64,000 nt of DNA from Flavobacterium chilense (lineage in GTDB: Bacteria; Bacteroidota; Bacteroidia; Flavobacteriales; Flavobacteriaceae), in assembly GCF_001602525.1 (NCBI RefSeq), contig NZ_LSYT01000001.1:310001-374000 (forward strand). Direction: 5' to 3'. This document shows, piece by piece, positions 20,763-44,321 of the stretch. The notes beneath the pieces were generated by a model. It saw only the letters and a list, made by a program, of their open reading frames with translations, was not told the DNA's origin and did no database searches. The first letter of the stretch is position 1. Each line of letters begins with the position of its first letter. The translations under genes were made by a program, and so were the position numbers.

Positions 20763-20806
20763 CCACTTATTTTAGGAATGATATTATAAAGTTCCACAAT
20801 CTTACT

Positions 20807-20842
20807 AAAAACCTGCAAATTTCGGATTTGCAGGTTTTTTTA
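20807..20842 (+). terminator. Terminator after tRNA-Val
   Basis: AACCTGCAAAT pairs with ATTTGCAGGTT around TTCGG, followed by a T-run. It separates the tRNA transcript from the integrase region. Confidence 0.85.
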
Positions 20843-20887
20843 TTTATATCTGTTTCCTCCAAAATTTTCAAAAACGCTCAAAATTAC

Positions 20888-20931
20888 ATGGCATTTTTAT
20901 GGCACTTTTAAATTTTAAAAAAATGTGCCAC
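20888..20931. repeat. Short repeats between tRNA-Val and the integrase (possible arm sites)
   Basis: ATGGCATTTT (20888) and ATGGCACTTT (20899) are direct repeats 11 bases apart, and AAATGTGCCAC (20921-20931) is an inverted copy of the same TGGCAC core. Similar clusters beside element ends serve as arm-type integrase sites in other systems. That role is inferred here. Confidence 0.4.
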
Positions 20932-21032
20932 AAAACAATAATTAAAATATTGATAATCAACATGTAAACTACGTTAACGACTTGATTTTAAGACGCTATA
21001 GCTCGACATTTACTCATTTAAATTGTTGAATT

Positions 21033-26861: not shown

Positions 26862-26862
26862 C

Positions 26863-28221: not shown

Positions 28222-28223
28222 TT

Positions 28224-30247: not shown

Positions 30248-31356
30248 AACATCAAATCGTATTGGTTGGAGGTCAGTTGTTGCCTATATATATTGGGATT
30301 AAAGAATTTAGTCCTGAAAAAATTCATTTCTTAGTTTCAAAAGAATCAGTTGAAAGCCTTCATAATCTGAAACCTATGATTAAGAGAATCTCTCAAAGTG
30401 AATATAGATGTAATGCCTTTGATTTCTATGAAATAAAAGCAATATTTGAGAAAATAATTCTAAAAATCAGTCCAGAAGACACTGTAACATTTAACTTAAC
30501 CGGAGGTACTAAAATAATGGTACTCGCTTGTCAAGCTATTATACACGAAAAAGGATTAAGTGGATTTTATATAAATCAAGATGATTCGTATCTAGTACTT
30601 CCTTCGTATGAAAGAAGAAACATAATTTCTGAATTAACAGTAAAAGAGTTCTTTGATATTAATGGGCATAGTACTTATAATTTCAAAAAAATGAGTGATT
30701 TTACAAAAGAGGATATTAAAACATCCGAAAAAATTAAAATTTTCGCAAATAATACTTCTAGATATAAATTGATAATTGGTTTTTTTAGAAAAAAATTTTT
30801 TGATAAAAATTTGGCGTTACCTCTAAATGGTTTTGAATCAATTAATAATAACCTTAAGGTTACTTGGAATCAAACTTCAATAAGCATAGAATCAAATAAT
30901 AAAAACATCTTAACAATAAACTCAAAATTAGCTCACGAGTTGCTATTTAAAGCTGTCTGGTGGGAACTTTTAGTAGCAAATGAAATTAGTATTTCAAACA
31001 AATACAAAGAGGTATTATTGAGCTTTGAACTTACTTTTAAATCAAATAAACAAGTTGCTAAAAATGAAATTGATATTTTAATTAATACTGGAAAAAAATT
31101 AATTTTCATTGAATGTAAATCTGGACTTGTTAAACAAGAAGATATAAATAAAATGAAAATCGTTAAACAAACGTATGGTGGTGTAATATCTAAATCTATT
31201 CTAGTTTCTCGCGAATTACCAAATCCATCAATAAGAGAAAAGTGCAAAGAGTTAGATATTGAATTGTTCTTCTCATTTGCATTAAAGCAAGAAGTAAATC
31301 CATTAAATAAATTATCGAAAGTAATTAATGATTTTGAACGTAAAGCATCAATTTAA
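30244..31356 (+). CDS. CARF-PD-(D/E)XK nuclease related to Card1/Can2 (DUF1887-like)
   Basis: A 370-residue protein with an N-terminal CARF-like sensor (start MKHQIVLVGGQLLPIYIGI; NLTGGTKIMVLACQAI at 84-99). The C-terminal nuclease domain shows AVWWELLVA (Glu 241), NEIDILI (Asp 277) and FIECKSG (Glu 290, Lys 292), the E...D...ExK layout of PD-(D/E)XK enzymes. Card1 and Can2 have this architecture and degrade nucleic acids when cyclic tetra-adenylate binds. Here no CRISPR-Cas locus is in the window, so the signal source is unknown. It is the last gene of the five-gene operon. Confidence 0.78.
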   Translation: MKHQIVLVGGQLLPIYIGIKEFSPEKIHFLVSKESVESLHNLKPMIKRISQSEYRCNAFDFYEIKAIFEKIILKISPEDTVTFNLTGGTKIMVLACQAIIHEKGLSGFYINQDDSYLVLPSYERRNIISELTVKEFFDINGHSTYNFKKMSDFTKEDIKTSEKIKIFANNTSRYKLIIGFFRKKFFDKNLALPLNGFESINNNLKVTWNQTSISIESNNKNILTINSKLAHELLFKAVWWELLVANEISISNKYKEVLLSFELTFKSNKQVAKNEIDILINTGKKLIFIECKSGLVKQEDINKMKIVKQTYGGVISKSILVSRELPNPSIREKCKELDIELFFSFALKQEVNPLNKLSKVINDFERKASI

Positions 31357-31436
31357 TTTGTTACTTTCATAAATAACAACAAATTTTTATAGTAGATCTA
31401 TTAACTTAAAATATATACAATTATAATTGTATATCA

Positions 31437-31562
31437 TAGCATTTGGTACCTTGGCGATACAGAAGATTAAGGAAGCCTTATTTTTTGTTTAAACACTTTT
31501 TTTAAAATTTGCAATCAACTGCCAATTAAGCTTAAACCCGCCATAGTATAGCAAATCTCGCT
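31437..31562 (-). repeat. attC-like palindromic repeat 1 (degenerate)
   Basis: It shares with the other repeats of this region the blocks TTGGCGATACAG, GATTAAGGAAGCC, GCCAATTAAGC and CGCCATA. The outer arms are poorly preserved. It lies past the end of the CARF operon. Confidence 0.4.
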
Positions 31563-31616
31563 TATTTTAATAAATAAAGTTTCAAGTAAAAATACCTGAT
31601 TTTTTAGAAAAGATTA

Positions 31617-31733
31617 TCAATATATGATCCTGATATCAATTTTCATGATACTTTTATATTTCAATAAAATCTGTAGTGATGTGCTTGATGCACTTAAATT
31701 CAGCCATATTACCAAACTACAATTATAACTTAT
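31617..31733 (-). repeat. Partial attC-like repeat after the DUF6602 gene
   Basis: The stretch CAGCCATATTACCAAACTAC near 31704-31723 matches the same end of the intact repeat at 35284-35412. The rest of the 250-base gap around it holds no convincing frame. Confidence 0.35.
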
Positions 31734-31736
31734 TTT

Positions 31737-32513
31737 TTATAGGCAAACTGTTCTGTTCCTTTTGATCTCTTTCGTTCCTTCTATTGGAAAGTCCATAAAA
31801 TATCTGTCACTCAAATCAGCAGTTGTGGTCATATGAATAAGGTTTGAAATAAAATACGAATGAGATAATCCGTCTAACTTATAAACATTATAGAAATTGG
31901 AGTCGCAATTTGCTTGAATTGGTGGATATAACCCTTCACTTCTCAACCAATGACGTATAAATATGTTACCACCTAATGAAAAATGATTAATTATTCCTCC
32001 TGAAAGCCTTAATGATTCATCAATAATATTTGAATTGATTCCTCCTTGATAATCAAAAGAAATAAGACCTCTAAATATTCGATTGTTATCTGTTCTTGAC
32101 AAAGTTGGGAATCTAACAATTGAGCTGAAATTTTCCACAACTTTATACAATCCATTTTTATGTGTTCGATTTGACGATACTTTTGATTTAACTTCGATTA
32201 ATGCTTTAACGCTATTTTGTGTAACAATTACAAAGTCTCCTTCAGTAAATATTGTAGGTTGCGTATTGTCATAAATTAATATATCAATCTGTTTCGAAAC
32301 AGTATTTTCAGTATGAGAAATTTGATTCAGAACAAATCCTGTTCCAACAGATAAATTATTTGGTAATCTACTTCTTAAAATAGCTTTAAGTTTTTCTTCT
32401 TTATATCTTCCGTCTTCTCCCCAATTAGCTTCTCCAATTAAATTTCTTACTCGATTTTTTATTGTGTCAAGTTCACGATTAATCGAGAGTTGATATTCTA
32501 ATGTGTTAATCAT
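31737..32513 (-). CDS. DUF6602-like protein (putative nuclease)
   Basis: A 258-residue protein from the ATG at 32513 (MINTLEYQLSINRELDTIKN); an upstream ATG at 32561 would overlap the repeat. The region GEDGRYKEEKLKAILRSRLP, LSVGTGFVLNQI, KQIDILIYDN and VKALIEVKSK matches the DUF6602 family. Its D...E-x-K spacing resembles a PD-(D/E)XK catalytic core, so DNA cleavage is possible. The C-terminal third has no recognised motif. It is the last unit of the cassette-like array. Confidence 0.72.
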   Translation of the reverse strand: MINTLEYQLSINRELDTIKNRVRNLIGEANWGEDGRYKEEKLKAILRSRLPNNLSVGTGFVLNQISHTENTVSKQIDILIYDNTQPTIFTEGDFVIVTQNSVKALIEVKSKVSSNRTHKNGLYKVVENFSSIVRFPTLSRTDNNRIFRGLISFDYQGGINSNIIDESLRLSGGIINHFSLGGNIFIRHWLRSEGLYPPIQANCDSNFYNVYKLDGLSHSYFISNLIHMTTTADLSDRYFMDFPIEGTKEIKRNRTVCL

Positions 32514-32560
32514 ATATTTTTTATTTAAAGAGTAAGTCTTTTTTGTTTCAAAATGAGGCA

Positions 32561-32684
32561 TAACTTATTGGCGATACAAGATGTTTGCAAGTTATGAAAC
32601 TGAGTGTTTTCGGCTAAACGTAAACGTGATAAAAAACGTTAATTCTACTAACTTCCCCAAATATCTTGTAAAGACCGTTAGACG
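32561..32684 (-). repeat. attC-like palindromic repeat 2
   Basis: Inner arms ACAAGATGTTTG (32576-32587) and CAAATATCTTGT (near 32658-32669) pair with one mismatch. Read on the minus strand, the element starts GTCTAAC, an exact RYYYAAC core, and ends GTTATGC, a core variant known from integrons. The TAA stop of the split gene (32678-32680) lies in the first core. Confidence 0.6.
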
Positions 32685-33475
32685 CTGTACATTGGTATGC
32701 AAATTTTATTTTGTATTAAATACTCAAAAGTTAATAAATCGTATTTGTATGGTTTTTCAATTCTTTCTATTACGATTGCATATGTTTTTTCTATGTTGTG
32801 TGGATTAAATTCATCGGAATTTAATGATTTAAATACTTCTTTTAATTCATCAGCTTCAATTAAATTACGGACGATAATGTAAATATTTTTATCTTGATTA
32901 AAACGCATATCACCGCAATTTTTGTTACTAACTCTTATAATTTCATCATTTTTCCAAATTGGGAAATAATCCCCTTTTGAAAATTCAAAACAATTTCTCC
33001 ATCTCCATTCCCTTTCATGTGTCCAATCATTTTTATACGAAAAATCAGTCAACATATACCTCTATTGTTCTTCATCGGGTAGATGTGGTGTGAACCATTC
33101 TCCGTTTTCAGAATTTGTTTCGTCATTATTTCCGCGGGTTAGTCCGTAAATTACATTTCGGGCTCCATTTTTAAACATAAAATCTTTAGAAATAGCAATT
33201 CCATATAAATCAATTTTTTCAATATCGTTTCTATTTTGAACATATGTTAAGAAACTAAACAAAGGCATTTCTGTAAAACAAACAGCTGGATATTTTCCGA
33301 AAATTGTTCTTTTGGTGTTTCTAACAGACCAGCCTGCATTTAATTTTCCACTTTTGATGATTTTTTTTAAGTTTTGAAATGCGGTACTATCATCGTTTTT
33401 TCTTGTGAAATGAATTAGATAATACGACATGTCGAATCTATTTTCATATATTTTTTGTAATAACTCTAGGCTCAT
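32678..33475 (-). pseudogene. Hypothetical protein gene interrupted by one in-frame amber codon
   Basis: Two frames in the same phase, 137 codons (33475-33062) and the continuation to 32678, are separated only by TAG at 33062-33064. After it the frame reads on (arg-tyr-met, then LTDFSYKNDWTHEREWRWRN), so a single substitution, perhaps from CAG, ended a protein of about 265 residues. Conserved-looking blocks are YYLIHFTRKNDDSTAF, KYPAVCFTEMPLFSF and GARNVIYGLTRG; the layout resembles families found with abortive-infection loci, but I cannot name it. It may be a pseudogene, a readthrough gene or a sequencing error. Confidence 0.6.
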
Positions 33476-33490
33476 TTTTTGTTTTATATC

Positions 33491-33628
33491 AGCTAACGTT
33501 TCGCGCTACACGCAGACTGGGATTAAAAACGCGTAATCTTTCTGTTAAATATTAATTTTTCAAATACAAACCATTTTCCAAATTGAGCTAAATGCCCAGC
33601 TTTTTTGTGGAGTTTGTATCAGAAGTCT
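33491..33628 (-). repeat. attC-like palindromic repeat 3
   Basis: It starts CTAACGTTTCGCGCTACACG and holds the shared central blocks AAATACAAACCATTTTCCAAATT and AAATGCCCAGC in shorter form. On the minus strand it ends AACGTTAGCT, and the ATG of the next gene follows about 23 bases later. Confidence 0.55.
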
Positions 33629-33635
33629 CTTTTAA

Positions 33636-34625
33636 TTAAATACCAATTAAATCATATATTTCCTGAGCTTTATGTCGAGTCAATTCTGGATAATTATCAC
33701 TTATTTTTTCAATTTCATCCATATATTTAATTATGTTTTCTTCATTTTCCTTTAGTAATAATAAATAATCAAACTCCGTATCTTTATGCTTACGCATCTC
33801 GTTTAATAGTAATAGATAACGATTCTCAATCATATTAAAATATTCTTCGTTAATTGTTATATTTTCCTGTACAATATTTAAAATCTGCTCAATGCAGAAA
33901 CGTGTTCTTATAATTGGGTGAGGATAGGCGCTTTCTTTGAAATATATTCTCTCAAACTTATTTGCAAACTCAATAAATATATTTGAAATTATCAAAGCGT
34001 AAAGCGTTACCAAATTAAAGAGAATTGATAAATTTAGTTTAATCTTATTTTCTTCCAGATATTGAAGAATTAAAATACTCCCTACAGATACTCCAAATAA
34101 ATCTGCATCAATTTCGTATACATGATTTTTTTCTAAATAAGGTGATTCATAATGACTTGATTCGTTAAATTCTGAACAATTTTCTCCTTTAGAAGTCGAA
34201 TTAAATTGTATTATGTGACCTAATTCATGAAAAAAAAGATAACTCATAGTCAAATAGATAAATAATTCAAGAAGTATATCCTCTTCAATTGGAAAGCCTG
34301 AAGCTTTTGTGAAGTTTTCTTTTAAAAAAATTGATATTGAATCTTTAATTATTGGTTCTAAATCATTGATGATTGAGTGATTTAGCATTATTATGTTAAC
34401 ATCTTTAAATGTCCAAGCTTTAGCGTTAAAATTTATGTTAAATCTAAAACTAAAATGAGTTTTAAATTCAAACTTTGAATTTATATTATCTATTGCTTCG
34501 CTGATATAATCAAAAGTTTTTAAAGCAAAATCTTCATTATCGAATAATGAAAATTCATCTACTGAGATTAAATCAGTTTCTGGAAAATACTTTTGAATTA
34601 AAGTTAAATGTTCTGTGTTGTTCAT
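33636..34625 (-). CDS. HExxH putative zinc metallopeptidase
   Basis: A 329-residue protein with the gluzincin-type motif FFHELGHIIQF (His-Glu-x-x-His near residue 134) and a downstream acidic helix YEIDADLFGVSVG that supplies the likely third ligand. There is no signal peptide; hydrophobic stretches after residue 180 (SILFNLVTLYALIISNIFIE) could be a buried helix or one membrane segment. Similar domains occur in cassette and defence genes next to toxins. The substrate is unknown. Confidence 0.65.
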   Translation of the reverse strand: MNNTEHLTLIQKYFPETDLISVDEFSLFDNEDFALKTFDYISEAIDNINSKFEFKTHFSFRFNINFNAKAWTFKDVNIIMLNHSIINDLEPIIKDSISIFLKENFTKASGFPIEEDILLELFIYLTMSYLFFHELGHIIQFNSTSKGENCSEFNESSHYESPYLEKNHVYEIDADLFGVSVGSILILQYLEENKIKLNLSILFNLVTLYALIISNIFIEFANKFERIYFKESAYPHPIIRTRFCIEQILNIVQENITINEEYFNMIENRYLLLLNEMRKHKDTEFDYLLLLKENEENIIKYMDEIEKISDNYPELTRHKAQEIYDLIGI

Positions 34626-34635
34626 TGAAATTTAT

Positions 34636-34773
34636 GATAACGTTTTGGTACGACAGCGGGTTTCGTACTAAATTAAGTACTATTTTTCGGATTTACCAAA
34701 TCATCCTAAATACAAAACCAACTTTCCATTAAGTCAAATGCCCAAATCCGTTGTAGTCGCTCAGCGGTTCGGC
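34636..34773 (-). repeat. attC-like palindromic repeat 4
   Basis: Left arm TTTTGGTACGACAGCGGGTTT, right arm AAATCCGTTGTAGTCGCTC, with shared centre CCAAATCATCCTAAATACAA. On the minus strand it ends AACGTTATCA, about 17 bases before the ATG of the HExxH gene. Confidence 0.6.
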
Positions 34774-34840
34774 ATTTTATTACTATCATTTTTTAAGAAC
34801 TCTTTTCTTGTTTGAAAATCTAATGACAACATAATAAAAT

Positions 34841-35233
34841 TTAATTTATTGGTAGAACAATTCTGTCTTTGGGCTCAGCTGACCATTGAACTTGCCATAC
34901 ACGTCCATCAATTTGGTCAAGCAAAATGAAATTATATATGTTTGTTGTCGGATAAAGAAAAAATCTTCCATTCTTCTCATCTTCTTTTGTAACTCGGGTT
35001 ATCAAGGATATCGGAGTTTCAAACTCATTACCTTTTGCAGACCATTGAACTTGCCACATTTGTCCATTTTTTGTATTCACTTTAATAAATGTATACATAT
35101 TTTTTGTTGCGAATAGCCTATACCCAACATCACTATCTGTAGAAATATTTTGAGTTGGTGTGTCAGATGTACTTTGTGCAAAAGCAAAAATTGTCGTTAA
35201 AGTAATAATTGTTACAAAGAATAATTTTCTCAT
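34841..35233 (-). CDS. Secreted two-repeat protein
   Basis: A 130-residue protein read from the ATG at 35233, which gives a proper signal peptide (MRKLFFVTIITLTTIFAFAQ); the longer frame to 35326 runs into the neighbouring repeat. The mature part has two copies of a motif of about 45 residues: RLFATKNMYTFIKVNTKNGQ then MWQVQWSAKG, and RFFLYPTTNIYNFILLDQID then VWQVQWSAEP. Each would make a small beta unit with the conserved WQVQWSA strand. The function is unknown; it is probably periplasmic. Confidence 0.65.
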   Translation of the reverse strand: MRKLFFVTIITLTTIFAFAQSTSDTPTQNISTDSDVGYRLFATKNMYTFIKVNTKNGQMWQVQWSAKGNEFETPISLITRVTKEDEKNGRFFLYPTTNIYNFILLDQIDGRVWQVQWSAEPKDRIVLPIN

Positions 35234-35283
35234 TTGTTTCAGTGTTTTAATTGTCTTTATATCTGTCGAATTTTTTATGCTGA

Positions 35284-35412
35284 CCGCTAACGTTTGGTCG
35301 CTTGATGTGACGATTAAGGAAGCCAAATCTTTCGGTTAATGACTAATTTCCCAAGTACAAAACCATCTTCAAATTAAGCCAAATCTCGCCATATTGCCAA
35401 ACGACGGTTAGC
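35284..35412 (-). repeat. attC-like palindromic repeat 5
   Basis: The clearest copy. Outer arms GCTAACGTTTGG (35286-35297) and CCAAACGACGGTTAGC (35397-35412) pair with a four-base bulge, as in attC sites. The TAA stop of the protease gene (35408-35410) lies inside the right arm. Confidence 0.65.
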
Positions 35413-36202
35413 AGTAGTCATTTTCGTCTGTCATTAATGTTGCATCAATTCCAACTTTAAAATCCGCTAAAGCAATACCATAAATTTTAGTTGCTCCTTC
35501 ATATCCGTGTGTTATAAGCGAAACAAGGTTTCCATCTGTATCCATAATAGGTGCACCGCTCGTTCCTTTAAAATCAGCGTTGTCTTGTATTGGATTTAAA
35601 AGTTCGAATTCATAATAATTCTTAATTTGTTGTATAAATTTTAGTCCACTATAAAAAGTTTGTTGAGTTTCAAGTATGTCGCCTTTCGGTGTATCTTTGA
35701 AAAATAGTGGCTTTATACGTCCAAAAAAACCATATTCCTTTTCAACTGAAGGTTTTTCTGTTAAATCTGTTTTGATTAAAAGTTTTTTGCTCTTTTTAAG
35801 ATTAAATTTTTCGAATTCAATTTCAATTTGAATGAAGTTTGCTTTGTGCATAAGTGTTGCATAACTAATGTCAATTTGACCAAAATCAATTTCTTCTATT
35901 CTATCAGGTTCGCTTTTAAGTTTCTCAATTTGCTCTTCATATTTTGTTATATCAAACTGTTCAAGATAATTCATTGCTCCGACAGAATAAAGTGGTGTTT
36001 GTCCATTAATTGTAGGTTGTTCTGTTACAATACAAGTAGCAGCTTCAATATCTGTTACGTGGGCAGCTGTTAATAAAATTTCTTTGTCTTTATAGTCAAT
36101 GATACAACCTGAACCAATTCCTTGTGGTAACAGAGAATCGGGGTCAGTCATTACAATATGAATTGTCGAACGAATAATTGTTTCAATATGTTTTTTTTCC
36201 AT
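35408..36202 (-). CDS. Trypsin-like serine protease domain protein
   Basis: A 264-residue protein with chymotrypsin-fold blocks: GSGCIIDYKDKEILLTAAHV (catalytic His of AAH near residue 48), an acidic candidate Asp in IDFGQIDISYA, and FKGTSGAPIMDTDGNL with the catalytic Ser in GTSGAP. No signal peptide is seen, so it acts in the cytoplasm, as do trypsin-like partners of several bacterial defence modules. The gene is a single-gene unit between two palindromes. Confidence 0.75.
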   Translation of the reverse strand: MEKKHIETIIRSTIHIVMTDPDSLLPQGIGSGCIIDYKDKEILLTAAHVTDIEAATCIVTEQPTINGQTPLYSVGAMNYLEQFDITKYEEQIEKLKSEPDRIEEIDFGQIDISYATLMHKANFIQIEIEFEKFNLKKSKKLLIKTDLTEKPSVEKEYGFFGRIKPLFFKDTPKGDILETQQTFYSGLKFIQQIKNYYEFELLNPIQDNADFKGTSGAPIMDTDGNLVSLITHGYEGATKIYGIALADFKVGIDATLMTDENDYC

Positions 36203-36223
36203 AACGTCTTTTTTTTATAATAA

Positions 36224-36362
36224 CCGCTAACATTCTCGCGATACAGCGGGTTTGGGACTAAATTATGCCCATTATTCGTATTTGCCAAATCATCACAAAT
36301 ACAAAACCATTTTTAAATTAAGCCAATTGCCCAAAACGCTTGTAGAGTGTGTTGTGCGACGT
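36224..36362 (-). repeat. attC-like palindromic repeat 6
   Basis: It starts CCGCTAACATTCTCGCGATA and carries GCGGGTTTGGG, which pairs with GCCCAAAACGC. On the minus strand it ends AATGTTAGCGG, about 30 bases before the protease ATG. Confidence 0.6.
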
Positions 36363-36365
36363 TTT

Positions 36366-38465
36366 TTACGTTAAACTATTTTCAAGTTCGGCTACTCTTT
36401 CGGGAGTTAAGTCTAATCTTGTAGCAAATCTATTTAAAGTCCTTCTTTCTTTTTCAGTTATTTCTCCATCATTTAAAAATTCTTTATATTCTTCAATATA
36501 TTCTTTTTCGTTTTCTGAATATGTAGTTGATGCTAAAAATTGATTTTCTAAATAATCAGCTTTTTCATCAGAAATTTTTAATTTGTCTTTCAATCTATTT
36601 AAAACTCTTCTTTCTTTTTCATCAATTATTCCATCATCTTCAAACATGAATTTCACTTCTTCTAAATATTCTTTTTCGTAATTACTTAAAGATGTAGAAT
36701 CGTTATCAATTGCTTTGAAATGTAATTGCTCAATGTTATTTTCTAATAAATTCTCTATTGATTCAAACTCAATCTCTATTTGCCATTCTATTGTTTCGCT
36801 TTGACTAAAATTATGCTCAACTAACCTATTAATCTCTACTTCCGCACCAATATAGAAATTTTCAAATGCTACTTTTACTCTCGACTTTTCATTATCACTA
36901 ATTGAATAAGAATTTTTTGAACTCATAAAATCATGATGATGTAATATATTTCCATTTATTCGTTGTTGGTATAGCCTATGCCAAGAAGTTTCGTGTGGAT
37001 ACCATAATAAATTTTTTGGAATATATGGTTTTTTAATAGGATTGAATTTTTGAGTTCTGGTTCTTCTAGAACCTGAAACTTCATTTGAATCTGTATTATT
37101 ACTCAAATCCATAGATCCATCAGCTTTAATTTTCATTGCGGATATTTTAGCGTCTATGTTTTTTGAGGAATTATATGAACTTGTCAATTCGTTTTCCTTT
37201 ACAACTCTAATAGTCATTGATTTAGCACCTAAACACTGAATAAAATAAGAGAATTCTTCAAATCTATCATTAAATAAAGATTCTTCGAAAGTAGAAAAAG
37301 GCAAATAAGATTCCTTAATATATGGATGAGCTATATAAACTTCTTGTATTTTAGGATGACTAATTGGGAATTTTATGTTCTCTGGTAAATTAGATTTTTT
37401 CAATGTCATTAAGTCGGATGATAAACTCGGCTTTATTTCTTGATTTATCAACAAAATTTTTCTTTCATCATACTTCAAATTCAAAAAAGAATCTTTATAT
37501 AAAGAATAAGTCTTTTCTAATTCATCAAATATAATATGTTGTAGTTCATCGTCGTCTGAATAATTTAAAGCTATTTGGTAATCTTGTAAAGCTCCATATA
37601 AATCGTTTAAACCATTTCTTAAATCCGCTCTCGCTCCATATATCAACGTATATTGATATCGAAGTTCATCAGAATATTCAAAATCAACCATTTTTTGATT
37701 TAAGATTTTCAATGCTTCTTTTTGATTTCCTAATTCTTGAAGTGAATAACTATTCCAATATAAAATAGTGTAAAAATGAGCTAAAGAATGCATCTTTAAT
37801 TCATCATAGTTGTAAATATTAATAAAACTTTTTATTAGTTCTAAACAATGTTTATGATTCACATCTGTTTGTTCATACGCATCACAGATTTCTTTCCACA
37901 ATTCATCAAAAAGATTATCGTTTTCATCAATAAGAATATTAATTTTTTCTTTGATAGTTAATATCATTTCGATTATAAGATTTCCGTTTTGGTCTCCATC
38001 TTCCATGAAGTAACCAAAAAGTTCAGTAGGAACTTCTAAAAAATCATTGTTGTTTTTATTGTAAATTTTAATAAAATATTCTTTTTCTTGAGTGTCTTTA
38101 TCGACATTATACCACAAGTCTATGTCATCAATATTATCCCAAGAAATATATTCTAAAAAATCTGGTTTTTTGTCCCAACCTGTAGTTTCTATTATTTTTC
38201 TAAAATGAATTCCATCTTCTAATATTAGTACACTATAAATATAATTTCTTGCTGAAGTAAAGAAATCTCCTTCTGTGGAAAATTCAACTTTGTAGCAATA
38301 AAGAATTTCAGTGTCTTTTGTTATGTCGTAAAGGCGTCTAATTTTATTTAAATGATTAGTTGTAAATGAATCTGATCCACTTCCATCATTCACAAAATAA
38401 CATTCTCCATCATGGTTGACACGATTATTTATCTCTGCTATTATTATTTCTCTATTTGTCTTCAT
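36366..38465 (-). CDS. Large TPR-like protein with duplicated C-terminal helical domain
   Basis: A 699-residue protein without signal peptide. The N-terminal 170 residues are beta-rich (YCYKVEFSTEGDFF, YIYSVLILEDGIHF). Residues about 200-340 look like TPR helices (SYSLQELGNQKEALKILNQK, YGARADLRNGLNDLYGALQD). A short polar linker contains SGSRRTRTQKFNP. The C-terminus has two related units of about 50 residues: SNYEKEYLEEVKFMFEDDGI with ERRVLNRLKDKL, and SENEKEYIEEYKEFLNDGEI with ERRTLNRFATRL. Such helical repeats resemble TerB-type modules. It follows the zinc-ribbon gene by 19 bases, so the two form one unit. Confidence 0.68.
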   Translation of the reverse strand: MKTNREIIIAEINNRVNHDGECYFVNDGSGSDSFTTNHLNKIRRLYDITKDTEILYCYKVEFSTEGDFFTSARNYIYSVLILEDGIHFRKIIETTGWDKKPDFLEYISWDNIDDIDLWYNVDKDTQEKEYFIKIYNKNNNDFLEVPTELFGYFMEDGDQNGNLIIEMILTIKEKINILIDENDNLFDELWKEICDAYEQTDVNHKHCLELIKSFINIYNYDELKMHSLAHFYTILYWNSYSLQELGNQKEALKILNQKMVDFEYSDELRYQYTLIYGARADLRNGLNDLYGALQDYQIALNYSDDDELQHIIFDELEKTYSLYKDSFLNLKYDERKILLINQEIKPSLSSDLMTLKKSNLPENIKFPISHPKIQEVYIAHPYIKESYLPFSTFEESLFNDRFEEFSYFIQCLGAKSMTIRVVKENELTSSYNSSKNIDAKISAMKIKADGSMDLSNNTDSNEVSGSRRTRTQKFNPIKKPYIPKNLLWYPHETSWHRLYQQRINGNILHHHDFMSSKNSYSISDNEKSRVKVAFENFYIGAEVEINRLVEHNFSQSETIEWQIEIEFESIENLLENNIEQLHFKAIDNDSTSLSNYEKEYLEEVKFMFEDDGIIDEKERRVLNRLKDKLKISDEKADYLENQFLASTTYSENEKEYIEEYKEFLNDGEITEKERRTLNRFATRLDLTPERVAELENSLT

Positions 38466-38484
38466 GAATTTTAATCATTTTTTT

Positions 38485-38730
38485 CTACAATGTTGGCGCA
38501 TGTTTTCCCTTATTAGTCCCATTTGGATGTCGATGACAAGAATTTCCTGTTAGACTTGAGATAGTTGAAGATGAAGTACCGCAATATTTACAGCTATATT
38601 GAGATTTTTCGCTTCCTTCATAAAGTTTATGTTTTCCGTTTCCAAGTGGATGGCGATGACATGAATTTGCAGTTAAACTCGAAATACTTGAACTTTTAGT
38701 TCCGCAATATTCACAATAACAGTTTGGCAT
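38485..38730 (-). CDS. Small protein with two tandem zinc-ribbon-like repeats
   Basis: An 81-residue protein made of two nearly identical units: CEYCGTKSSSISSLTANSCH followed by RHPLGNGKH, and CKYCGTSSSTISSLTGNSCH followed by RHPNGTNKGKH. Each has Cys-x2-Cys, a third Cys, and paired His residues, so each should bind a zinc ion. Such units are common in Bacteroidetes proteins of unknown role. It is encoded directly upstream of the 699-residue protein and may work with it. Confidence 0.72.
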   Translation of the reverse strand: MPNCYCEYCGTKSSSISSLTANSCHRHPLGNGKHKLYEGSEKSQYSCKYCGTSSSTISSLTGNSCHRHPNGTNKGKHAPTL

Positions 38731-38901
38731 TTTTTATTTTTTTAGTTGAATTTTATTTTTTTTGGAGATTTCGTTTTTCACAAAATGTCGCATAACTTAC
38801 TTATATGTGTGACAAATAGAAGAAAAATTGGAGTACGAATGTATAAATAAATTTTTACAAATATTCAAACACCCTTTTAATTTATTGTAAGTTTTGTATA
38901 C

Positions 38902-39015
38902 TCAAATTGGTGCGTATTTCGTTGTTTTGCTGCTGTCATCACTTGATAGTTTCTGTATATGCCGTAAATAAATGGCACTTTCAAACAGGTGCGTCGCATA
39001 ACTGTGAATCCTTTG
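38902..39015 (-). pseudogene. Decayed tyrosine-recombinase C-terminus, copy 1
   Basis: One minus-strand frame reads [20 protein letters not shown] then KLSSDDSSKTTKYAPI and a stop. This follows the tyrosine-recombinase pattern [26 protein letters not shown], but the LGH of the catalytic His is SSD, no tyrosine motif follows, and the N-terminal domain is gone. It is more divergent than copy 2. Confidence 0.7.
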
Positions 39016-39170
39016 ACAAGTTTCGGATAAAATAAAGTCATTTGCCTATTTCGGGTTTGTATTGACATTTATTGTTGTTTTTTAGCTCATTCTGCAATTG
39101 GGGGATCCTATCCCTTTATCCAGAAGACAAATTATCTTTTAGTGATTTTCGACATATTACAAACGCAATT

Positions 39171-39374
39171 TTATAGTTTTATTAGTAAATCAATTTTACT
39201 TCTATAACAAGGATGATAAGATGGCACATATCTTATATATCCCATTTCTTACAATTGCTTAAAATACTTGTGGTATGCGGGTAAAGTATGGATATGTGAT
39301 AACGCCATAATTCTGCTTCTGCTAACATTTATAGTTTTTCTGTCCTTGACGATATCCTAAATACAGAATAGTGC
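39171..39374 (-). pseudogene. Truncated, frameshifted copy of the 98-residue winged-helix gene
   Basis: It matches the 3' two thirds of the intact gene at 42952-43248, beginning within TATTCTGTATTTAGGATATC. A small deletion after GACAGAAAAA shifts the frame into a TAG stop, and the 5' end is missing where copy 1 of the large repeat ends. Confidence 0.72.
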
Positions 39375-39406
39375 CATATAGTCAAACGGCGGTTGGGTGC
39401 CGTTAT
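39352..39406 (-). repeat. Half attC-like repeat 7
   Basis: Only one half of the repeat is present (CTAAATACAGAATAGTG, AGTCAAACGGCGGTTGGG). The TAA stop of the 281-residue gene at 39403-39405 again lies in a CGTTA core. Confidence 0.45.
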
Positions 39407-40248
39407 TTTTTTCCAATTATATATATTCCTTTCCAATTTTTCGGAAACTCCATTTCTTTCCATACCGTTTCAAATTTGTCGATACCCCAAAAGTCATCTA
39501 TTACGTAAAAAACGGCATAAAATATTTCATAATTCGTGTCGCCTGTATAACCTTTTGTATCTGCTACAACTTGGTCTATTTGAGCTTTTAATTTTGTTTT
39601 GGTGTCTGCATATTTATATTCAACAGCTGTGTGGATTTCAGGTATAAGTATGTCTGGGTTGTAGTTTTTAAATGATTTAAAAAAACCTGATGTTGGTTCA
39701 AGTGCAGAAGGAAAAACAGATTTAACAACGAACTTAGCCGCATTATAAACCTGTGGCTCACTTGTCGGTTTTACATTTGTTTCATTGATAATTACTTGTG
39801 TGTTACGTAATATACGTTCAAGATAAGTAACTCCTGTTTGTTTAAGTAATTTGTCGATGTAACTTTGTTGGCTGAATTCAAATGGACTTAAAAAATGCCA
39901 AAGTTTGCTTACTGTTTTACTATACATTTCACCAGAACCATTATCTAAACCTTTATCAAACAAATCTTCCCTTTTATCTGTAAATAATGTTGCAAATTCG
40001 GTTTTAAAGTCAGCTAAATATTCTTTAAGATTTGATGTTTCTAAATATGCGATGATTAGTTTATAAACAGTTTTTGCTTTGTGTTCAAAGTTGCCTTCAA
40101 GTTCCATCTCTTTATAAATATAGTTTTCTTCCTGCTTAGCTTCGTCTGAGGAATATTCTTCCATAAAGGATAATTCAGAAAAGTCGCTACTCATACTCCA
40201 TAAGGTTTCGACAATTTTGCTTTCTCTATATTTTTGTTCGTTCATCAT
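39403..40248 (-). CDS. PD-(D/E)XK nuclease-like protein
   Basis: A 281-residue protein. The N-terminal 190 residues are helical and acidic. The C-terminal part holds YNPDILIPEIHTAVEYKYAD, with Asp, a later Glu and Tyr-Lys spaced as in PD-(D/E)XK enzymes, then LKAQIDQVVADTKGYTGDTN, a helix and final strands. It resembles Mrr- or restriction-like endonucleases that act without a partner methylase. No methyltransferase is nearby. Confidence 0.6.
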   Translation of the reverse strand: MMNEQKYRESKIVETLWSMSSDFSELSFMEEYSSDEAKQEENYIYKEMELEGNFEHKAKTVYKLIIAYLETSNLKEYLADFKTEFATLFTDKREDLFDKGLDNGSGEMYSKTVSKLWHFLSPFEFSQQSYIDKLLKQTGVTYLERILRNTQVIINETNVKPTSEPQVYNAAKFVVKSVFPSALEPTSGFFKSFKNYNPDILIPEIHTAVEYKYADTKTKLKAQIDQVVADTKGYTGDTNYEIFYAVFYVIDDFWGIDKFETVWKEMEFPKNWKGIYIIGKK

Positions 40249-40298
40249 TAGTCTTTTGATAATTGTTTTTGTCTACTCCGATGTAACTCAATAATAGC

Positions 40299-40410
40299 AC
40301 CTAACGTCAGGCTGTGAAAAAAACTAAAATTGACCTCTTGAGAATTTCATATTTGATATTTTTCTCAGGTAGCCCTCCAGATACTCTCTAAATTTAAAGA
40401 GTTTTTTTTA
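40299..40410 (-). repeat. attC-like repeat 8 (second type)
   Basis: It begins ACCTAACGTCAGGCTGTGAA and ends in a stem ACTCTCTAAATTTAAAGAGT with a T-run. On the minus strand its end is GTTAGGT, an exact GTTRRRY core. It is nearly identical to repeat 9 on the other side of the glycosylase gene. Confidence 0.6.
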
Positions 40411-40465
40411 TTTAGTTCTACTTTAATCGATTCATTTTTTTAAGTTTCTACTATTCAAACATCAC

Positions 40466-41098
40466 TTATACAACTTCAATTTTCTGTTGTCTTTTCACAT
40501 TTGATAATCGTATTTTCTGTGAATTAATAGTTCCTATTTCTATAAGCAACTCTTTTGAAGAATTTATTTTTAAATCTCTTTTATATATGTCCCACTCATC
40601 GAAGAAATGATTATAAGAAGGATGATTAAAAACTAAAATATTTTCCTTTTTATCAGTAAATTCATTTATCGCTTTCCAAAAACTATCAAAAAGTAAATTT
40701 GTTCCAATTTTACTTTTGCCAAAAATCAAAATCGGAATATCATAGTCATTTGCAATTCTTGAAATTTCTTTTGCGCAATGAATTTGAATATTATCAAAAA
40801 AATCTATTCCAATTTCTCTTCTAATAGTTTGTAATTCTTCAGTTTTAATAGTGTGAATAAACGTTTTGTTAAAAACAGCACATTCAATGTCAAAATCATT
40901 TATTAATTCATTTATCCTGAAGTGCTTTCTTAATTTCTGTCCTGATGTACCGATGAAAAATTTGTTTTCCTTATATTCAGTTTTCCCTGGATTATCGCCT
41001 ACAATAATATATTTCAATTTTGGCAATTCGTAATCTTGCTCATTAAAACAATATTTCACGTTAAATTCGTCAAGTTTATCAGTAAATTTTGTTGTCAT
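40466..41098 (-). CDS. Uracil-DNA glycosylase-family protein
   Basis: A 210-residue protein from the ATG at 41098 (MTTKFTDKLDEFNVKYCFNE); an upstream ATG at 41131 lies in the repeat. The UDG-superfamily pocket is visible as YIIVGDNPGKTEYKENKFFI with GTSGQKLRKHF, and the second motif as VFNHPSYNHFF. The first motif resembles G-x-x-PG-x-x-E of family 4/5 and MUG-like enzymes. It should excise uracil or a damaged base. It may counter uracil-containing phage DNA, which is inference only. Confidence 0.78.
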   Translation of the reverse strand: MTTKFTDKLDEFNVKYCFNEQDYELPKLKYIIVGDNPGKTEYKENKFFIGTSGQKLRKHFRINELINDFDIECAVFNKTFIHTIKTEELQTIRREIGIDFFDNIQIHCAKEISRIANDYDIPILIFGKSKIGTNLLFDSFWKAINEFTDKKENILVFNHPSYNHFFDEWDIYKRDLKINSSKELLIEIGTINSQKIRLSNVKRQQKIEVV

Positions 41099-41121
41099 TT
41101 TTCGGTTTTTTGGTAAAATGT

Positions 41122-41238
41122 CACTCAACATCAGTCTGTGAAGAAACTAAAATTGATCTCTTGAGAATTTCATATTTGAGATTTTTCTCATGTAGCCCTC
41201 CGAATACTCTCTAAATTTAAAGAGGTTTTTCACAGCAT
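41122..41238 (-). repeat. attC-like repeat 9 (second type)
   Basis: Outer arms CTGTGAAGAAACT and AGGTTTTTCACAG pair, and inner blocks match repeat 8 almost base for base (CTCTTGAGAATTTCATATTT, ACTCTCTAAATTTAAAGAG). On the minus strand it ends GTTGAGT, an exact GTTRRRY core. Confidence 0.6.
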
Positions 41239-41370
41239 TACGTCTTGGTACAACAGAGGGTTTGGAACTATATTAAGTCCTATTTTCGGGTTAGCCAAAT
41301 CATCCCAAATACAAAACAAACTTTCCATTAAGCCAATTAACCAAATCTGTTGTAGCTGTTGGCTGTAGTG
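41236..41370 (-). repeat. attC-like palindromic repeat 10
   Basis: Arms TTGGTACAACAGAGGGTTTGG and CCAAATCTGTTGTAGCTG are complementary apart from bulges; the centre CCAAATCATCCCAAATACAA is shared with repeats 4 and 6. It abuts repeat 9. Confidence 0.6.
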
Positions 41371-41375
41371 TTTCT

Positions 41376-41819
41376 TTAATAATTTTTAGTTGTATATGTA
41401 AACTTACTTTCAGATTTTCCAATTTTTTGGTTTAATTCAAAAGTTTTAATAACTATTTCTTTTGGCAATCTTAAGCTTTCTAATAATTCAATAAGTTCTT
41501 GTTTTTCATTTCCAAGATTCCCCAATGATTCCCCATTTATATTTTCACCCAATAACCAACAATTTACACCATGATTATCAATTTTAGCAGAAAATTCAAG
41601 TGGAATATTGCAAGTTAATAAACAATTTAATTCTATTTTTTCGTGGTCATCTAAATCAAATCCTCTACTTAAACAACTTAAAAGTAAACTTGGTCTATTC
41701 AGCAAGTCATCAATAAACTTCTCTGTATTAGTTACTTTTATTGATTTTATTGCTTTTCTAAAACTATAAATATTAAACATTATTAATTCGTCTATATCTT
41801 TTTTTATATTTAGTTTCAT
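41376..41819 (-). CDS. Hypothetical protein in cassette
   Basis: A 147-residue protein, start MKLNIKKDIDELIMFNIYSF, mainly helical and charged, without signal peptide or membrane segment. I see no known domain. The gene is a single unit bounded by attC-like repeats 10 and 11, 6 bases after the end of the former. Confidence 0.55.
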   Translation of the reverse strand: MKLNIKKDIDELIMFNIYSFRKAIKSIKVTNTEKFIDDLLNRPSLLLSCLSRGFDLDDHEKIELNCLLTCNIPLEFSAKIDNHGVNCWLLGENINGESLGNLGNEKQELIELLESLRLPKEIVIKTFELNQKIGKSESKFTYTTKNY

Positions 41820-41855
41820 TTTATTCGTTTTTTAAGTTTCGGCGGCAACATTACT

Positions 41856-41990
41856 GCCAATGTTCTGCTACTAAAGCGGGTTTGTGAATAAATTAAGCTT
41901 ATTATTCGGATTTGCCAAATCTCCCAATGCAAAACCAACTTCCCATTAAGCCAATTGCCCAAATCCGCTACAGCATTTACTTTCAGTGTC
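41856..41990 (-). repeat. attC-like palindromic repeat 11
   Basis: Arms TGCTACTAAAGCGGGTTTG and CAAATCCGCTACAGCA pair with few mismatches around the shared centre TTTGCCAAATCTCCCAATGC. It separates the 147-residue gene from the lipoprotein gene. Confidence 0.6.
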
Positions 41991-41993
41991 TTG

Positions 41994-42500
41994 TCAATTT
42001 AGGTCAATAACATCATCTATTTTGAAGTGACCGTTTTCTTTTATAATTTTAATTTCTCTGATGTATTTCACTTTATAACCGTCATCTGAAATAGTAGTTT
42101 TAAATACTAAACAATTTTCAGTCTTGTTTTTAAAATCACATTTTGTAACAGTCGGATTTATCCAGTCTTGACCCGAAATGAGGAAACCTGAATGAAAACC
42201 GGCAAGTTTTGTATCATAATGATTTTTCCATTTTTTTTCAAAATACTTTTCAATTAGATTTCCATCTACGTCAAACTCGATATTCATAGCGTCTGATTTA
42301 TATTCTGCATAACGTTTTGTAGTTATTGATGCCATTTCTGAATTATCATTTTTAAAATATGTTTCAATCGATTCAATAAGCCATTTTTTAGCGGACTTAA
42401 CTTCTGTTATTCTTTTTTCTTTATTTTCCGTATTTTTTTGTTCATGAGAATTGCAGGAAAAAAAAACGACCAGAACTAGATATTTTAGGATTTGTTTCAT
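41994..42500 (-). CDS. Putative lipoprotein in cassette
   Basis: A 168-residue protein read from the ATG at 42500 (MKQILKYLVLVVFFSCNSHE), which gives a clean lipobox FFSC with Cys at residue 16; the longer frame to 42524 adds eight residues. The mature protein has an NTF2-like rhythm (KKWLIESIETYFKNDNSEMA, YVKYIREIKIIKENGHFKI) and may be an immunity-like or surface protein. The function is unknown. It is the first unit of the array, directly below repeat copy 2. Confidence 0.6.
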   Translation of the reverse strand: MKQILKYLVLVVFFSCNSHEQKNTENKEKRITEVKSAKKWLIESIETYFKNDNSEMASITTKRYAEYKSDAMNIEFDVDGNLIEKYFEKKWKNHYDTKLAGFHSGFLISGQDWINPTVTKCDFKNKTENCLVFKTTISDDGYKVKYIREIKIIKENGHFKIDDVIDLN

Positions 42501-42532
42501 TTTAGAGGTTTCGTGATTCGACATTACAGGTT

Positions 42533-43157
42533 ACTTACTTATATGTGTGATAGAATCACACAAAGTCATCTCATAGGGTTAGATATGTGTGAAAAATGCA
42601 CGAAAAATGGGGATACGAATGTATAAATAAATTTTTACAAATATTCAAACGCACTTTTAATTTATTGTAAGTTTTTTTATATTTAAATTGGTGGGTATTT
42701 CGTTGTTTTGCTGCTGTTATCACTTAATAGTTCTTGTATATACCGTAAATCAGTTCCGCTTTCAAGCAGGTGCGTCGCATAACTGTGAATCCTTTTACAA
42801 GTTTCGGATAAAATAAAGTCATTTGCCTATTTCGGGTTTTCATGGACATTTACTGTTGCTTTTTTAGCTCCTTTTGCAACTGGGGATCCTGTCCCTTTAT
42901 CCGGAACACAAATTATCTTTTAGTAATTTTGGACATATTACAAACGCAATTTTATAGTTTTATCAGTAAATCAATTTTACTTCTATAACCAGGATGATAA
43001 GATGGTACATATCTGATATATCCCATTTCTTGCAATTGCTTAAAATACTTGTGATATGTGGGTAAAGTATGGATATGTGATAACGCCATAATTTTGCTTC
43101 TGCTAACACTTATAGATTTTTTTTGTCCTTGACGATATCCTAAATACAGAATAGCAC
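42533..43157. repeat. Large direct repeat, copy 2
   Basis: About 625 bp matching 38795-39374. It is continuous with the intact backbone gene at 42952-43248, so this is probably the original locus and copy 1 the derived one. Recombination between the copies would remove about 3.7 kb with four cassette genes. Confidence 0.85.
42683..42796 (-). pseudogene. Decayed tyrosine-recombinase C-terminus, copy 2
   Basis: The minus-strand frame reads [20 protein letters not shown] then [17 protein letters not shown] and a stop. This is an almost textbook Xer/IntI-type C-terminal segment (H-x-x-AT-x-L, D-L-R-x-I-Q-E-L-L, S-S-x-T-T), but the LGH box has become LSD and the frame breaks before the nucleophile. 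A shifted frame beyond continues IKSAFEYL, like the usual end of such proteins. It lies just upstream of the first cassette gene. Confidence 0.75.
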
Positions 43158-43248
43158 TCAATAGGGCAAAATGCCAGACATTCAGTCTGCTGTCATTCTC
43201 AATGACAGTCAAATAATCCAATAATTCTCCTAAGTCCATGATTTTCAT
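42952..43248 (-). CDS. Small winged-helix-like protein
   Basis: A 98-residue protein with a helical N-terminus (GELLDYLTVIENDSRLNVWH) and a probable winged helix from residue 45 (SVSRSKIMALSHIHTLPTYH, then FKQLQEMGYIRYVP). Its start overlaps the stop of the next upstream gene by ATGA, so both are translated together. It is probably a DNA-binding accessory protein of the element. Its 3' part lies in the large direct repeat and is duplicated as a pseudogene at 39171-39374. Confidence 0.7.
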   Translation of the reverse strand: MKIMDLGELLDYLTVIENDSRLNVWHFALLSAILYLGYRQGQKKSISVSRSKIMALSHIHTLPTYHKYFKQLQEMGYIRYVPSYHPGYRSKIDLLIKL

Positions 43249-43517
43249 TCTTCGCCAAACAGCTTTCTTAGGTCGGTCTTATTATAATAATAGGAACCCA
43301 ATACTTTCTTAAACCTTACTTTTCCTGTCACTCTCAAATTTTGCAGTGAGCCCGCAGACATATCCATCAATTTTCTTACCACCCGGCTTTTGAGCCATTC
43401 AGGATCCAAAGATTCTTTCTCACTCGTTTGACTTTCGTCTATTATCTTACGAATATCATTTAACAGAAGCAATCCAAATTGCCTCAAGTCATCCTTTGTT
43501 ACACTATCATTCATCAT
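43245..43517 (-). CDS. Helix-turn-helix / excisionase-like DNA-binding protein
   Basis: A 90-residue protein. The C-terminal half (KLMDMSAGSLQNLRVTGKVR, then FKKVLGSYYYNKTDLRKLF) is a MerR/excisionase-type helix-turn-helix, as found in many small conjugative-element regulators. It is translationally coupled to the 98-residue gene. It could control excision or transfer, but this is inferred from family and position. Confidence 0.75.
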   Translation of the reverse strand: MMNDSVTKDDLRQFGLLLLNDIRKIIDESQTSEKESLDPEWLKSRVVRKLMDMSAGSLQNLRVTGKVRFKKVLGSYYYNKTDLRKLFGEE

Positions 43518-43943
43518 CTGCCTCTTTTTTAATCTGATTATTAGAATTTAAAAGTACATCAGAACTTACCACAACTTCCAGCAGTGTCTTTTCATGGAAC
43601 TATTTGTCCGGCTGAGTCACCTGCACCAGTGTTTTGTTATTGATGTATTGATGCGCAGAATAAAAATAGAAACCACATACCAGAACACTTTCCAATACGA
43701 AAAAGGATAAAAAGGCAGCTAAGGTATTATGGACACCAGCCGCATCCCCCGCCAAAAGACTACGGCATAAACGGTTTCCTCCCCTAAAGGGTACCCCTCC
43801 AATTATTCCGTTTCCTTTTGGCCTTCCGCAATGTCCATACCTTTTTGTTGCTTTCTTTTTTTCCGTTTTTTCTTTTGGATAAATATTTTTTGAGGCAGGC
43901 GGATGAAGAAAAAAAAGACTGTAGAACACTAAAAAAAACGATT
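43518..43943. other. Intergenic region between HTH gene and ssb
   Basis: About 425 bases between divergent genes. Short frames cover it on both strands; the longest on the minus strand (43600-43929) contains one hydrophobic stretch (LAAFLSFFVLESVLVCGFYF) but has an unlikely N-terminus. I see no RNA gene or repeat. Promoters for both divergent genes must lie here. Confidence 0.4.
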
Positions 43944-44321
43944 ATGAACATTATTGGAAGAGTGACATCAGATGCGCAGGTACGCAACGTGTCAAACAGT
44001 AAACAGGTAGTGAATTTCTCAGTAGCCATCAACGACAGCTACCGAAACAAAGCGGGCGAACAAGTAGAGCTGACAACGTATTTTGACTGCGCTTACTGGA
44101 TTAGCTCCAAGGTTGCCAAGATACTCACTAAGGGTTCCCTTGTGGAACTCACAGGCAGGGTAAGTGCACGGGCGTGGACAGGCAGTAACGGAGAAGCACG
44201 GGCAGGACTTAATTTCAACACCTCACAGATCAAACTGCACGGGGGCGGTAAAAAATCGGAAACGGCACAGGCTACCACGTCAACAAGTAATGACAAGCCG
44301 GAGAACGACCTCCCTTTTTAA
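43944..44321 (+). CDS. ssb: Single-stranded DNA-binding protein
   Basis: A 125-residue protein from the ATG at 43944 (MNIIGRVTSDAQVRNVSNSK); the frame is open further upstream, but that part lacks SSB features. The OB fold shows NFSVAINDSYRNKAG, TTYFDCAYW and VELTGRVSARAW. The tail ends in the acidic DLPF, the conserved protein-interaction tip of SSB. It is a mobile-element SSB that coats transferred single strands. The DUF932 gene follows 43 bases later. Confidence 0.92.
   Translation: MNIIGRVTSDAQVRNVSNSKQVVNFSVAINDSYRNKAGEQVELTTYFDCAYWISSKVAKILTKGSLVELTGRVSARAWTGSNGEARAGLNFNTSQIKLHGGGKKSETAQATTSTSNDKPENDLPF

Follow-up and report, generated by a model that had tools for sequence, protein, structure and literature searches.

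The window analysed here is a stretch of 64,000 nucleotides (nt) of the Flavobacterium chilense genome (contig NZ_LSYT01000001.1, positions 310,001 to 374,000), and we confirm that it contains two decayed copies of the 3' end of one tyrosine-recombinase gene. The explanation that best accounts for the whole is that these relics are, very probably, the decayed 3' end of an integron integrase that is still joined to its recombination site attI. Judged by comparison with its relatives in several Bacteroidia families, the window holds the relic of a different kind of integron, in which the integrase lacks the I2 insert of the integron integrase IntI and is co-directional with the cassettes. We consider it likely that Bacteroidia and related viral and plasmid elements run a large class of such I2-less integrons, which would capture cassettes via folded attC sites and whose integrases would either never have acquired the I2 helix or have lost it.

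Integrase relics and attI sites in a duplicated head

The sequence-only reading of this DNA had placed minus-strand recombinase remnants at 42683-42796 and 38902-39015, each just upstream of co-directional cassettes and with the LGH box lost. Both are found there (the relics span 42635-42790 and 38855-39009), the LGH box reads LSD / SSD, and runs of cassette open reading frames (ORFs) follow both relics in the same direction. The parts of the duplicated head are:

42583-43154, minus: copy A of the duplicated head (3' part of ORF98, integrase relic, most of the attI relic)
42635-42790, minus: integrase relic A (last ~50 codons to the stop; LGH box lost, frameshift, in-frame stops)
42527-42600, minus: attI-like relic A (TCACACATAT / TGTGTGA / TCACACATATAAGTAAGTAACC, core mutated to GTAACC; compared by eye with the attI of relatives)
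38803-39371, minus: copy B of the duplicated head (direct repeat of 42583-43154)
38855-39009, minus: integrase relic B (same lesions as relic A, plus more)
38787-38815, minus: attI-like relic B (core ..CACACATATAAGTAA / GTTATGCGAC; accessory boxes lost)

Beyond its intact-reading part, relic A continues in a broken frame to KNLQ-stop-IKSAFEYL-stop, the end typical of the family, and copy B does the same with more damage. Homology of the relic DNA to five intact genes continues past the stop codon into the 3' flank. Three lesions are common to both copies: a 1-nt deletion after CAAC, a 5' cut just before HSYATH and the loss of LGH. The gene was therefore dead before it was duplicated, as had been proposed from the sequence alone. 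The duplication itself is direct, about 570 bp long (larger than the stretches noticed at first) and made up of four blocks that are 89-94% identical, with a spacing of 3781. Read along the minus strand, the relic is preceded in both copies by the 3' portion of a 98-aa ORF (42952-43248), and only at copy A is this ORF complete. Copy B starts within the left attC arm of cassette 39403-40248, which equals the join expected of a 43154-39372 tandem duplication. The cassettes behind attI-A and attI-B differ, and cassettes were therefore lost or gained after the duplication.

The first bases of an integron cassette once ended its own attC; they are therefore expected to pair with the R'' flank of that cassette's far-end attC and not with the flanks of other attC. 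In the window, where all pairs were compared by eye, attI-B GTTATGCGAC is complementary at 9/10 bases to R'' GTCGCACAAC of the next attC (36351-36360), and the mutated attI-A fits more poorly (about 5/7). Similarly, R'' GCACCCAAC of the truncated attC (39392-39400) fits the cassette start GTTAGGTGC (40297-40305) at 8/9 bases, and a further pair, GTTAGCGG and CTGCTAAC, at 7/8. Covariance model R1 finds eight attC in the window, of which six belong to the model by construction (marked 'in model') and two are new; the left arm of a truncated site was recognised by eye:

41855-41986, minus: attC (R1 113.6 bits; in model)
41235-41365, minus: attC (R1 111.8 bits; in model)
39372-39402, minus: left arm of the truncated attC, joined to copy B (by eye)
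36225-36358, minus: attC of the first cassette after attI-B (R1 121.7 bits; in model)
35285-35414, minus: attC (R1 97.0 bits; in model)
34635-34767, minus: attC (R1 106.1 bits; in model)
33491-33622, minus: attC (R1 87.2 bits; in model)
32558-32684, minus: divergent attC outside the model (R1 42.7 bits, E 1.3e-6; also found by the pairing scan)
31439-31564, minus: weak attC outside the model (R1 28.9 bits, E 0.0011)

With eight attC and only relics of an integrase, the window has the make-up of a cluster of attC sites lacking an integron integrase (CALIN), defined by at least two attC with no functional integrase nearby. An Rfam search of 31000-44000 gave zero matches up to E 1.

Intact relatives, their arrays and their enzyme

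Using a 37-aa query from the relic, matches are obtained in 95 of 100 genomes (the window's own genome included), most of which are weak and represent other recombinases. Among the intact relatives, the best (in frames of 313-386 aa) reach 87-90% identity across 30 residues, with a best E of 3e-13. At an author-chosen threshold of at least 35 bits, 33 of the 61 genomes of the genus (again including the own genome) have an intact or broken member of the gene family. We examined the flanks of the 20 best places outside the own genome with a sequence profile built from six window repeats and one from contig C6. The same repeats lie downstream of and co-directional with the gene in nine of these regions, to which the statement on direction is limited; once a direction-blind pairing scan is added, attC-like sites are seen downstream in 16 of the 20. 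In three of the remaining four (L049, L050 and L056) the contig ends 2.9, 1.1 and 0.9 kb downstream, while the fourth (L064) has a broken frame and was left unscanned. That the closest intact relatives might never stand beside such repeats, a prospect under which the sequence-only reading was to be given up, did not come true. Decayed genes beside arrays also occur elsewhere: at L067 a 91-aa frame precedes four profile matches, and among the other matched frames several are short or interrupted by stops.

Taken over 54 loci, the pairing scan yields 129 sites in 306 kb downstream against 21 in 454 kb upstream (175 and 31 when read on the opposite strand, the pattern being nearly palindromic). 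The 80 named loci comprise 35 scanned as class A (the group discussed so far), 32 scanned as others and 13 unscanned. For class A, the upstream flank and Markov shuffles served as controls (0.33 sites per 10 kb in 120 kb of shuffles, at the same threshold and a slightly wider length limit); at the 32 other, distant loci, matches are scattered over both sides (e.g. 6 and 13 at L146). Covariance model R1 finds sites in 12 of 16 further loci, and attC in 54 of 100 relatives, 50 of which are among the 61 genus genomes (no more than 33 candidates were scored in each genome). Downstream sites of roughly 120 nt are seen at named loci, among them Algoriphagus, Cyclobacterium, Algibacter, Seonamhaeicola and Winogradskyella. 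Plasmid NZ_CP041688.1 of Chryseobacterium sp. SNU WT5 combines the gene with an attI core and has seven scanned sites on the downstream side and zero upstream; plasmid NZ_CP094530.1 of C. oryzae has the gene and attI core with just three poor sites. On the former (L229), several sites of about 138 nt starting with TTTTCCCAAC lie downstream of the integrase, the first near attI, and are perhaps ORF-less cassettes.

Integrases from viral contigs had been intended as negative controls and were rejected as such, as they carry arrays on the other side. These IMG/VR contigs, in which an I2-less integrase faces away from dense arrays, are here called class B; 42 of 80 were scanned, some being near copies of each other, and gave 291 sites in 351 kb upstream against 47 in 408 kb downstream. 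Among them, contigs called viral (L172, L195, L206, L154 and L167) show dense attC, many of 75-86 and 120-125 nt, divergent from I2-less integrases.

The repeats were aligned after omitting or re-cutting three odd rows and omitting the C6 copy. Boxes ..YAAC on the left and GTTR on the right enclose paired L arms and are mostly 118-125 nt apart (box to box). In the outer arms 80.9% of the cells pair, compared to 70.9% in shuffles and 30-40% in slid controls, and 61 cells have changed on both sides against 22.8 in shuffles (0/500 as high). The sites thus possess the inverted R''/L''/L'/R' arms of an integron attC.

The complementarity between cassette start and attC end, as left by a circular intermediate, is likewise present. 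In class A (23 arrays as input, 16 of which yielded pairs), 56 adjacent pairs reach a mean of 5.50/6, against 2.49 for the own site (85 pairs) and 2.32 for other pairs (324; p 2e-27); in class B, 122 pairs average 4.83 against 2.69 for 1040 other pairs. With boxes at the model positions, 14 of 17 adjacent pairs are 6/6 in G148 (19 sites) and 12 of 13 in G030 (14 sites). With misplaced boxes the signal of these two arrays (L252 and L253) is weak (means 2.7 and 3.8; p 0.019 and 0.012).

Between the integrase and the first cassette an attI is found with a core like ATATAYAMRA/GTTR, comparable to GTTRRRY, 80-124 nt past the stop codon and mostly near 100; copies A (mutated) and B of the window belong here. 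Out of 17 input loci 12 were scorable, taking the best core within a 100-nt stretch, and the attI flank matches the first scanned attC at 6/6 in nine of these and at 5/6 in one. A complete case is G148, with an intact integrase, attI GTTAGGAG and 19 co-directional attC. Many class A attI carry, about 40-100 nt past the stop, a variable motif of several bases three times (direct, inverted, direct) around TACCCAAA..TTTGGGTA (by eye); it differs across loci and agrees within one, and the inner boxes are lost in window copy B, L058 and L067.

Across 150 genomes of the genus, a case of cassette sharing was found in G102, the genome of another species: here the identity around cassette 33636-34625 is 80% for the upstream attC, 95% between R' and the start codon, and 93% over the ORF. 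The rise at R' (the GTT core) is as capture would predict. Cassette sharing among class A arrays amounts to just three partial BLASTN matches of 70-79%.

The class A integrase is mostly 347 aa long and has about 70 aa ahead of its SAM-like domain. For four proteins, the XerA model NF040815 of NCBIfam scores 230.8, 224.3, 220.7 and 218.3 bits (curated cut-off 220), and the integron-integrase model TIGR02249 stays below its cut-off of 265, with 199-211 bits split over two pieces. When the query is aligned to the Vibrio IntI structure 2A3V, 59 chain residues face 15 of the query. Between (K/R)DR and HxLRHS, class A has 56-59 residues and class B 51-55, against 100 in rows L133, L139 and L146, which carry the IntI insert (lengths are given where the motif search worked; L136 and L147 show the insert by sequence). 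An AlphaFold model of medium quality (pLDDT 75, pTM 0.46) has no helix in 253-270, a low-confidence stretch; its best Foldseek matches are XerA and 2A3V, with poor superpositions. By alignment, family models, gap lengths and this structure model, the IntI-specific I2 insert of about 40 residues is absent from the closest intact relatives. The extra IntI helix, for which the sequence-only reading had suggested looking there, is thus missing, and the enzyme is not an IntI in the strict sense.

In a tree of 87 rows, built by a quick method with SH-aLRT support only, the five IntI form one clade (100) and the 19 class B rows another (97). A third clade (99) gathers the class A rows close to the relic, 20 of 37; the other class A rows fall in several places. 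True IntI above the cut-off was found in 0 of 18 genus genomes (own included) and 1 of 73 of the class, with at most 7 candidates scored per genome and class counts tallied by hand; for the phylum the count is 84 of 296 genomes sampled, 83 of them among the 223 outside the class.

Cassettes and genomic setting of the window

For most cassette products Pfam, NCBIfam and PADLOC give little information:

41994-42524, minus: cassette ORF, 176 aa, no assigned product
41376-41819, minus: cassette ORF, 147 aa, no assigned product
40466-41131, minus: cassette ORF, weak uracil-DNA-glycosylase similarity (PF03167 7.6e-5, below cut-off)
39403-40248, minus: cassette ORF, weak DpnII/MboI restriction-endonuclease similarity (PF18742 1.3e-4, below cut-off)
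36366-38730, minus: first cassette after attI-B, ORFs 38485-38730 (81 aa) and 36366-38465 (699 aa)
35408-36202, minus: cassette ORF, weakly LmuA-like (PADLOC 3.2e-7)
34841-35326, minus: cassette ORF, 161 aa, with 75% similar DNA on own-genome contig C18
33636-34625, minus: cassette ORF, 329 aa, the one shared with G102
32678-33475, minus: two-ORF cassette, ORFs 33062-33475 and 32678-33055
31737-32561, minus: cassette ORF, DUF6602 / PD-DExK, NucC-like (PF20247 3.5e-18; PADLOC 3.3e-20)

Two 90-nt repeats (40318-40407 and 41141-41230; 92% alike, with TGTGAA..TTCACA near their ends) sit just 5' of two cassette ORFs, either as ORF-less cassettes or as small inserted elements. Beyond the array, 22701-31356 is a possible defence island with an AAA helicase-like protein that has an S1 domain, a weak DrmC-like protein (28224-29669, below cut-off) and a Card1-like CARF nuclease (30244-31356).

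A tRNA-Val (20688-20765) followed by an integrase gene lies at 20688-22376 of the window. A 25-nt copy of the tRNA-Val end is found at C1:450351-450375 of the own genome, before another tRNA-Val at C1:450601 (region C1:450351-450684). The approximately 120 kb between the tRNA-Val copies look like one or two integrative elements, with a gene for a PRTRC protein. This stretch holds both the window array and, about 80 kb from it, a second small integron (C1:432203-436675; L018 8204-12676) with an intact I2-less integrase (279 or 301 aa depending on the start), attI GTTATAGCC at L018 9211 and two attC with matching flanks. Its integrase faces away from the two attC-bounded cassettes, which encode PAS, response-regulator and GAF-like proteins (by eye). 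Model R1 finds the attC at C1:436546-436678 and misses the other one. The intact gene could act in trans. The model also finds an attC of the same family on own-genome contig C6:13550-13685 (L017).

Explanations, known systems and meaning

The anatomy of the intact relatives is that of a 347-aa XerA/IntI-like tyrosine recombinase transcribed towards its cassettes. Such an integrase would recombine the attI about 100 nt past its own stop with the attC of circular cassettes, and new cassettes would enter beside the integrase. In the mobile element, the gene would have been truncated and broken, after which its 3' end and attI would have been duplicated, most simply as a tandem of about 3.8 kb joined within the attC of cassette 39403-40248. 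Behind each attI, the cassettes may then have diverged by loss, or by insertion via a trans-acting integrase. As for the missing I2, attC might be recognised via other surfaces, or the second strand exchange might be blocked differently or not be blocked. The earlier proposal that the remnants come from the integrase that built the array is thereby supported by the relatives that head the same repeats, though not as an IntI in the strict sense.

It might be argued that a classical IntI, since lost or acting in trans, produced the arrays as ordinary CALINs, and that the XerA-like gene is a passenger beside attI. The attC boxes are canonical, I2 is regarded as indispensable and, outside this class, true IntI is frequent in the phylum, all of which fits; yet the near absence of IntI from the genus and class (within the candidates scored) is difficult to combine with these attC in 50 of 61 genus genomes. 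Since, moreover, attI usually lies about 100 nt past the stop of the I2-less gene and fits the first cassette, and since a second I2-less group (viral contigs) and the own-genome gene at C1:432203 adjoin arrays of their own, we regard such a passenger as improbable. Far less credible still is a relic of an unrelated Xer or phage integrase standing beside cassettes by accident, an alternative the sequence-only reading had kept. The enzyme is nearest to archaeal XerA by family model and tyrosine recombinases are plentiful (17 matches in the own genome), but copy B ends in an attI that the first cassette fits at 9/10 bases, and the same order recurs in intact loci; such matches are hard to square with chance.

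Concerning the duplication step only, copy B may instead be an integron head, or a relic on a cassette-like unit, inserted into an attC. Its start within a left attC arm and the different cassettes behind it make this a possibility, albeit a doubtful one: a tandem join yields an identical junction, the common lesions and the identity of about 90% point to one local ancestor, and searching the 5.9-Mb genome, with 40 of 79 candidates scored, gave 2 matches and no third relic copy. Finally, the repeats could be a family of repetitive extragenic palindromes or miniature inverted-repeat transposable elements unrelated to recombination. The two 90-nt elements do look like inserted repeats, but the complementarity between cassette starts and attC ends at the 120-nt sites is unexplained by such families, and we give this idea next to no credence.

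Several observations weigh against the I2-less integron that we favour. The relic keeps only its last ~50 codons, so its I2-less status rests on relatives that are 87-90% identical, and recombination by an I2-less enzyme is read from anatomy. The pairing scan is insensitive in the window, where it recovers two of the eight sites at the same threshold and gives two chance matches in 1-30000. Association between gene and attC is moderate (median 7 vs 2.5 attC, p 0.007, in 33 vs 28 genomes): at least one attC occurs in 20 of the 28 gene-less genomes and none in three of the 33 with the gene. The attI match fails in two of the 12 scored loci (L065 3/6, L067 0/6) and five of the 17 were unscorable; at L067 the real site is outside the searched stretch, where ACAAGTTGTGCGTT complements R'' AACGCACAAC. 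The cassette shared with G102 differs in its own 3' attC (69%). Furthermore, according to PMC7790495, IntI needs the I2 helix to capture cassettes; therefore either this requirement does not apply to the present arrays, or they were built by a different enzyme.

The present integrons resemble classical ones in that attI adjoins the integrase, attC carry RYYYAAC / GTTRRRY-like boxes together with paired L boxes, cassette starts complement R'' of their own attC, and the arrays run one way; they differ in the absent I2 insert (56-59 residues in class A against 100 with the insert) and the extra N-terminal part of about 70 aa. Treponema IntI, in contrast to the class A enzyme, is a true IntI. Archaeal XerA (PDB 5hxy and 4a8e) provides the best family model (NF040815) and is among the best structures, whereas the extra N-terminal part and the linked attC arrays are peculiar to the enzymes studied here. 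XerA functions in dif resolution and is not known to have cassettes. In comparison with other CALINs, the window shares the attC arrays without a working integrase beside them and differs in that the dead integrase end and attI are recognisable, twice. The chromosomal integrons of Treponema also have an integrase transcribed towards the cassettes, as stated in sections of PMC3607928, and the parallel drawn from the sequence alone was correct. For the 'Integron-like' subgroup of tyrosine recombinases, the portions of PMC8138268 consulted report no cassette arrays.

Integrons are defined and sought via IntI, whose I2 helix is held to enable recombination of single-stranded attC hairpins (parts of PMC7790495 and PMC9668308). 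A 2022 survey names, in the sections available, one complete Bacteroidetes integron, that of Salinibacter ruber (PMC9024848), and extracts of PMC2426708 and PMC8618304 list Bacteroidetes/Bacteroidota among the integron-bearing phyla, which argues against a phylum untouched by integrons. With IntegronFinder and HattCI, three complete integrons, one In0 and 17 CALINs were reported in 10,705 phage genomes (PMC9892861, in excerpt). Among the matches listed, no open-access title or abstract describes I2-less integrases at Bacteroidota attC arrays.

If the proposed class is real, I2 would be unneeded for cassette capture as such, IntI-based surveys would have missed the class, and decayed heads like those of the window would be the remains of such integrons. 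Enzymes without I2 but with a complete anatomy of attI, attC and cassettes make the idea of an I2 requirement directly testable. Overall, the group may provide present-day examples of a stage that possibly preceded I2, or else of an alternative solution, and would add a reservoir of integrons in the Bacteroidia.

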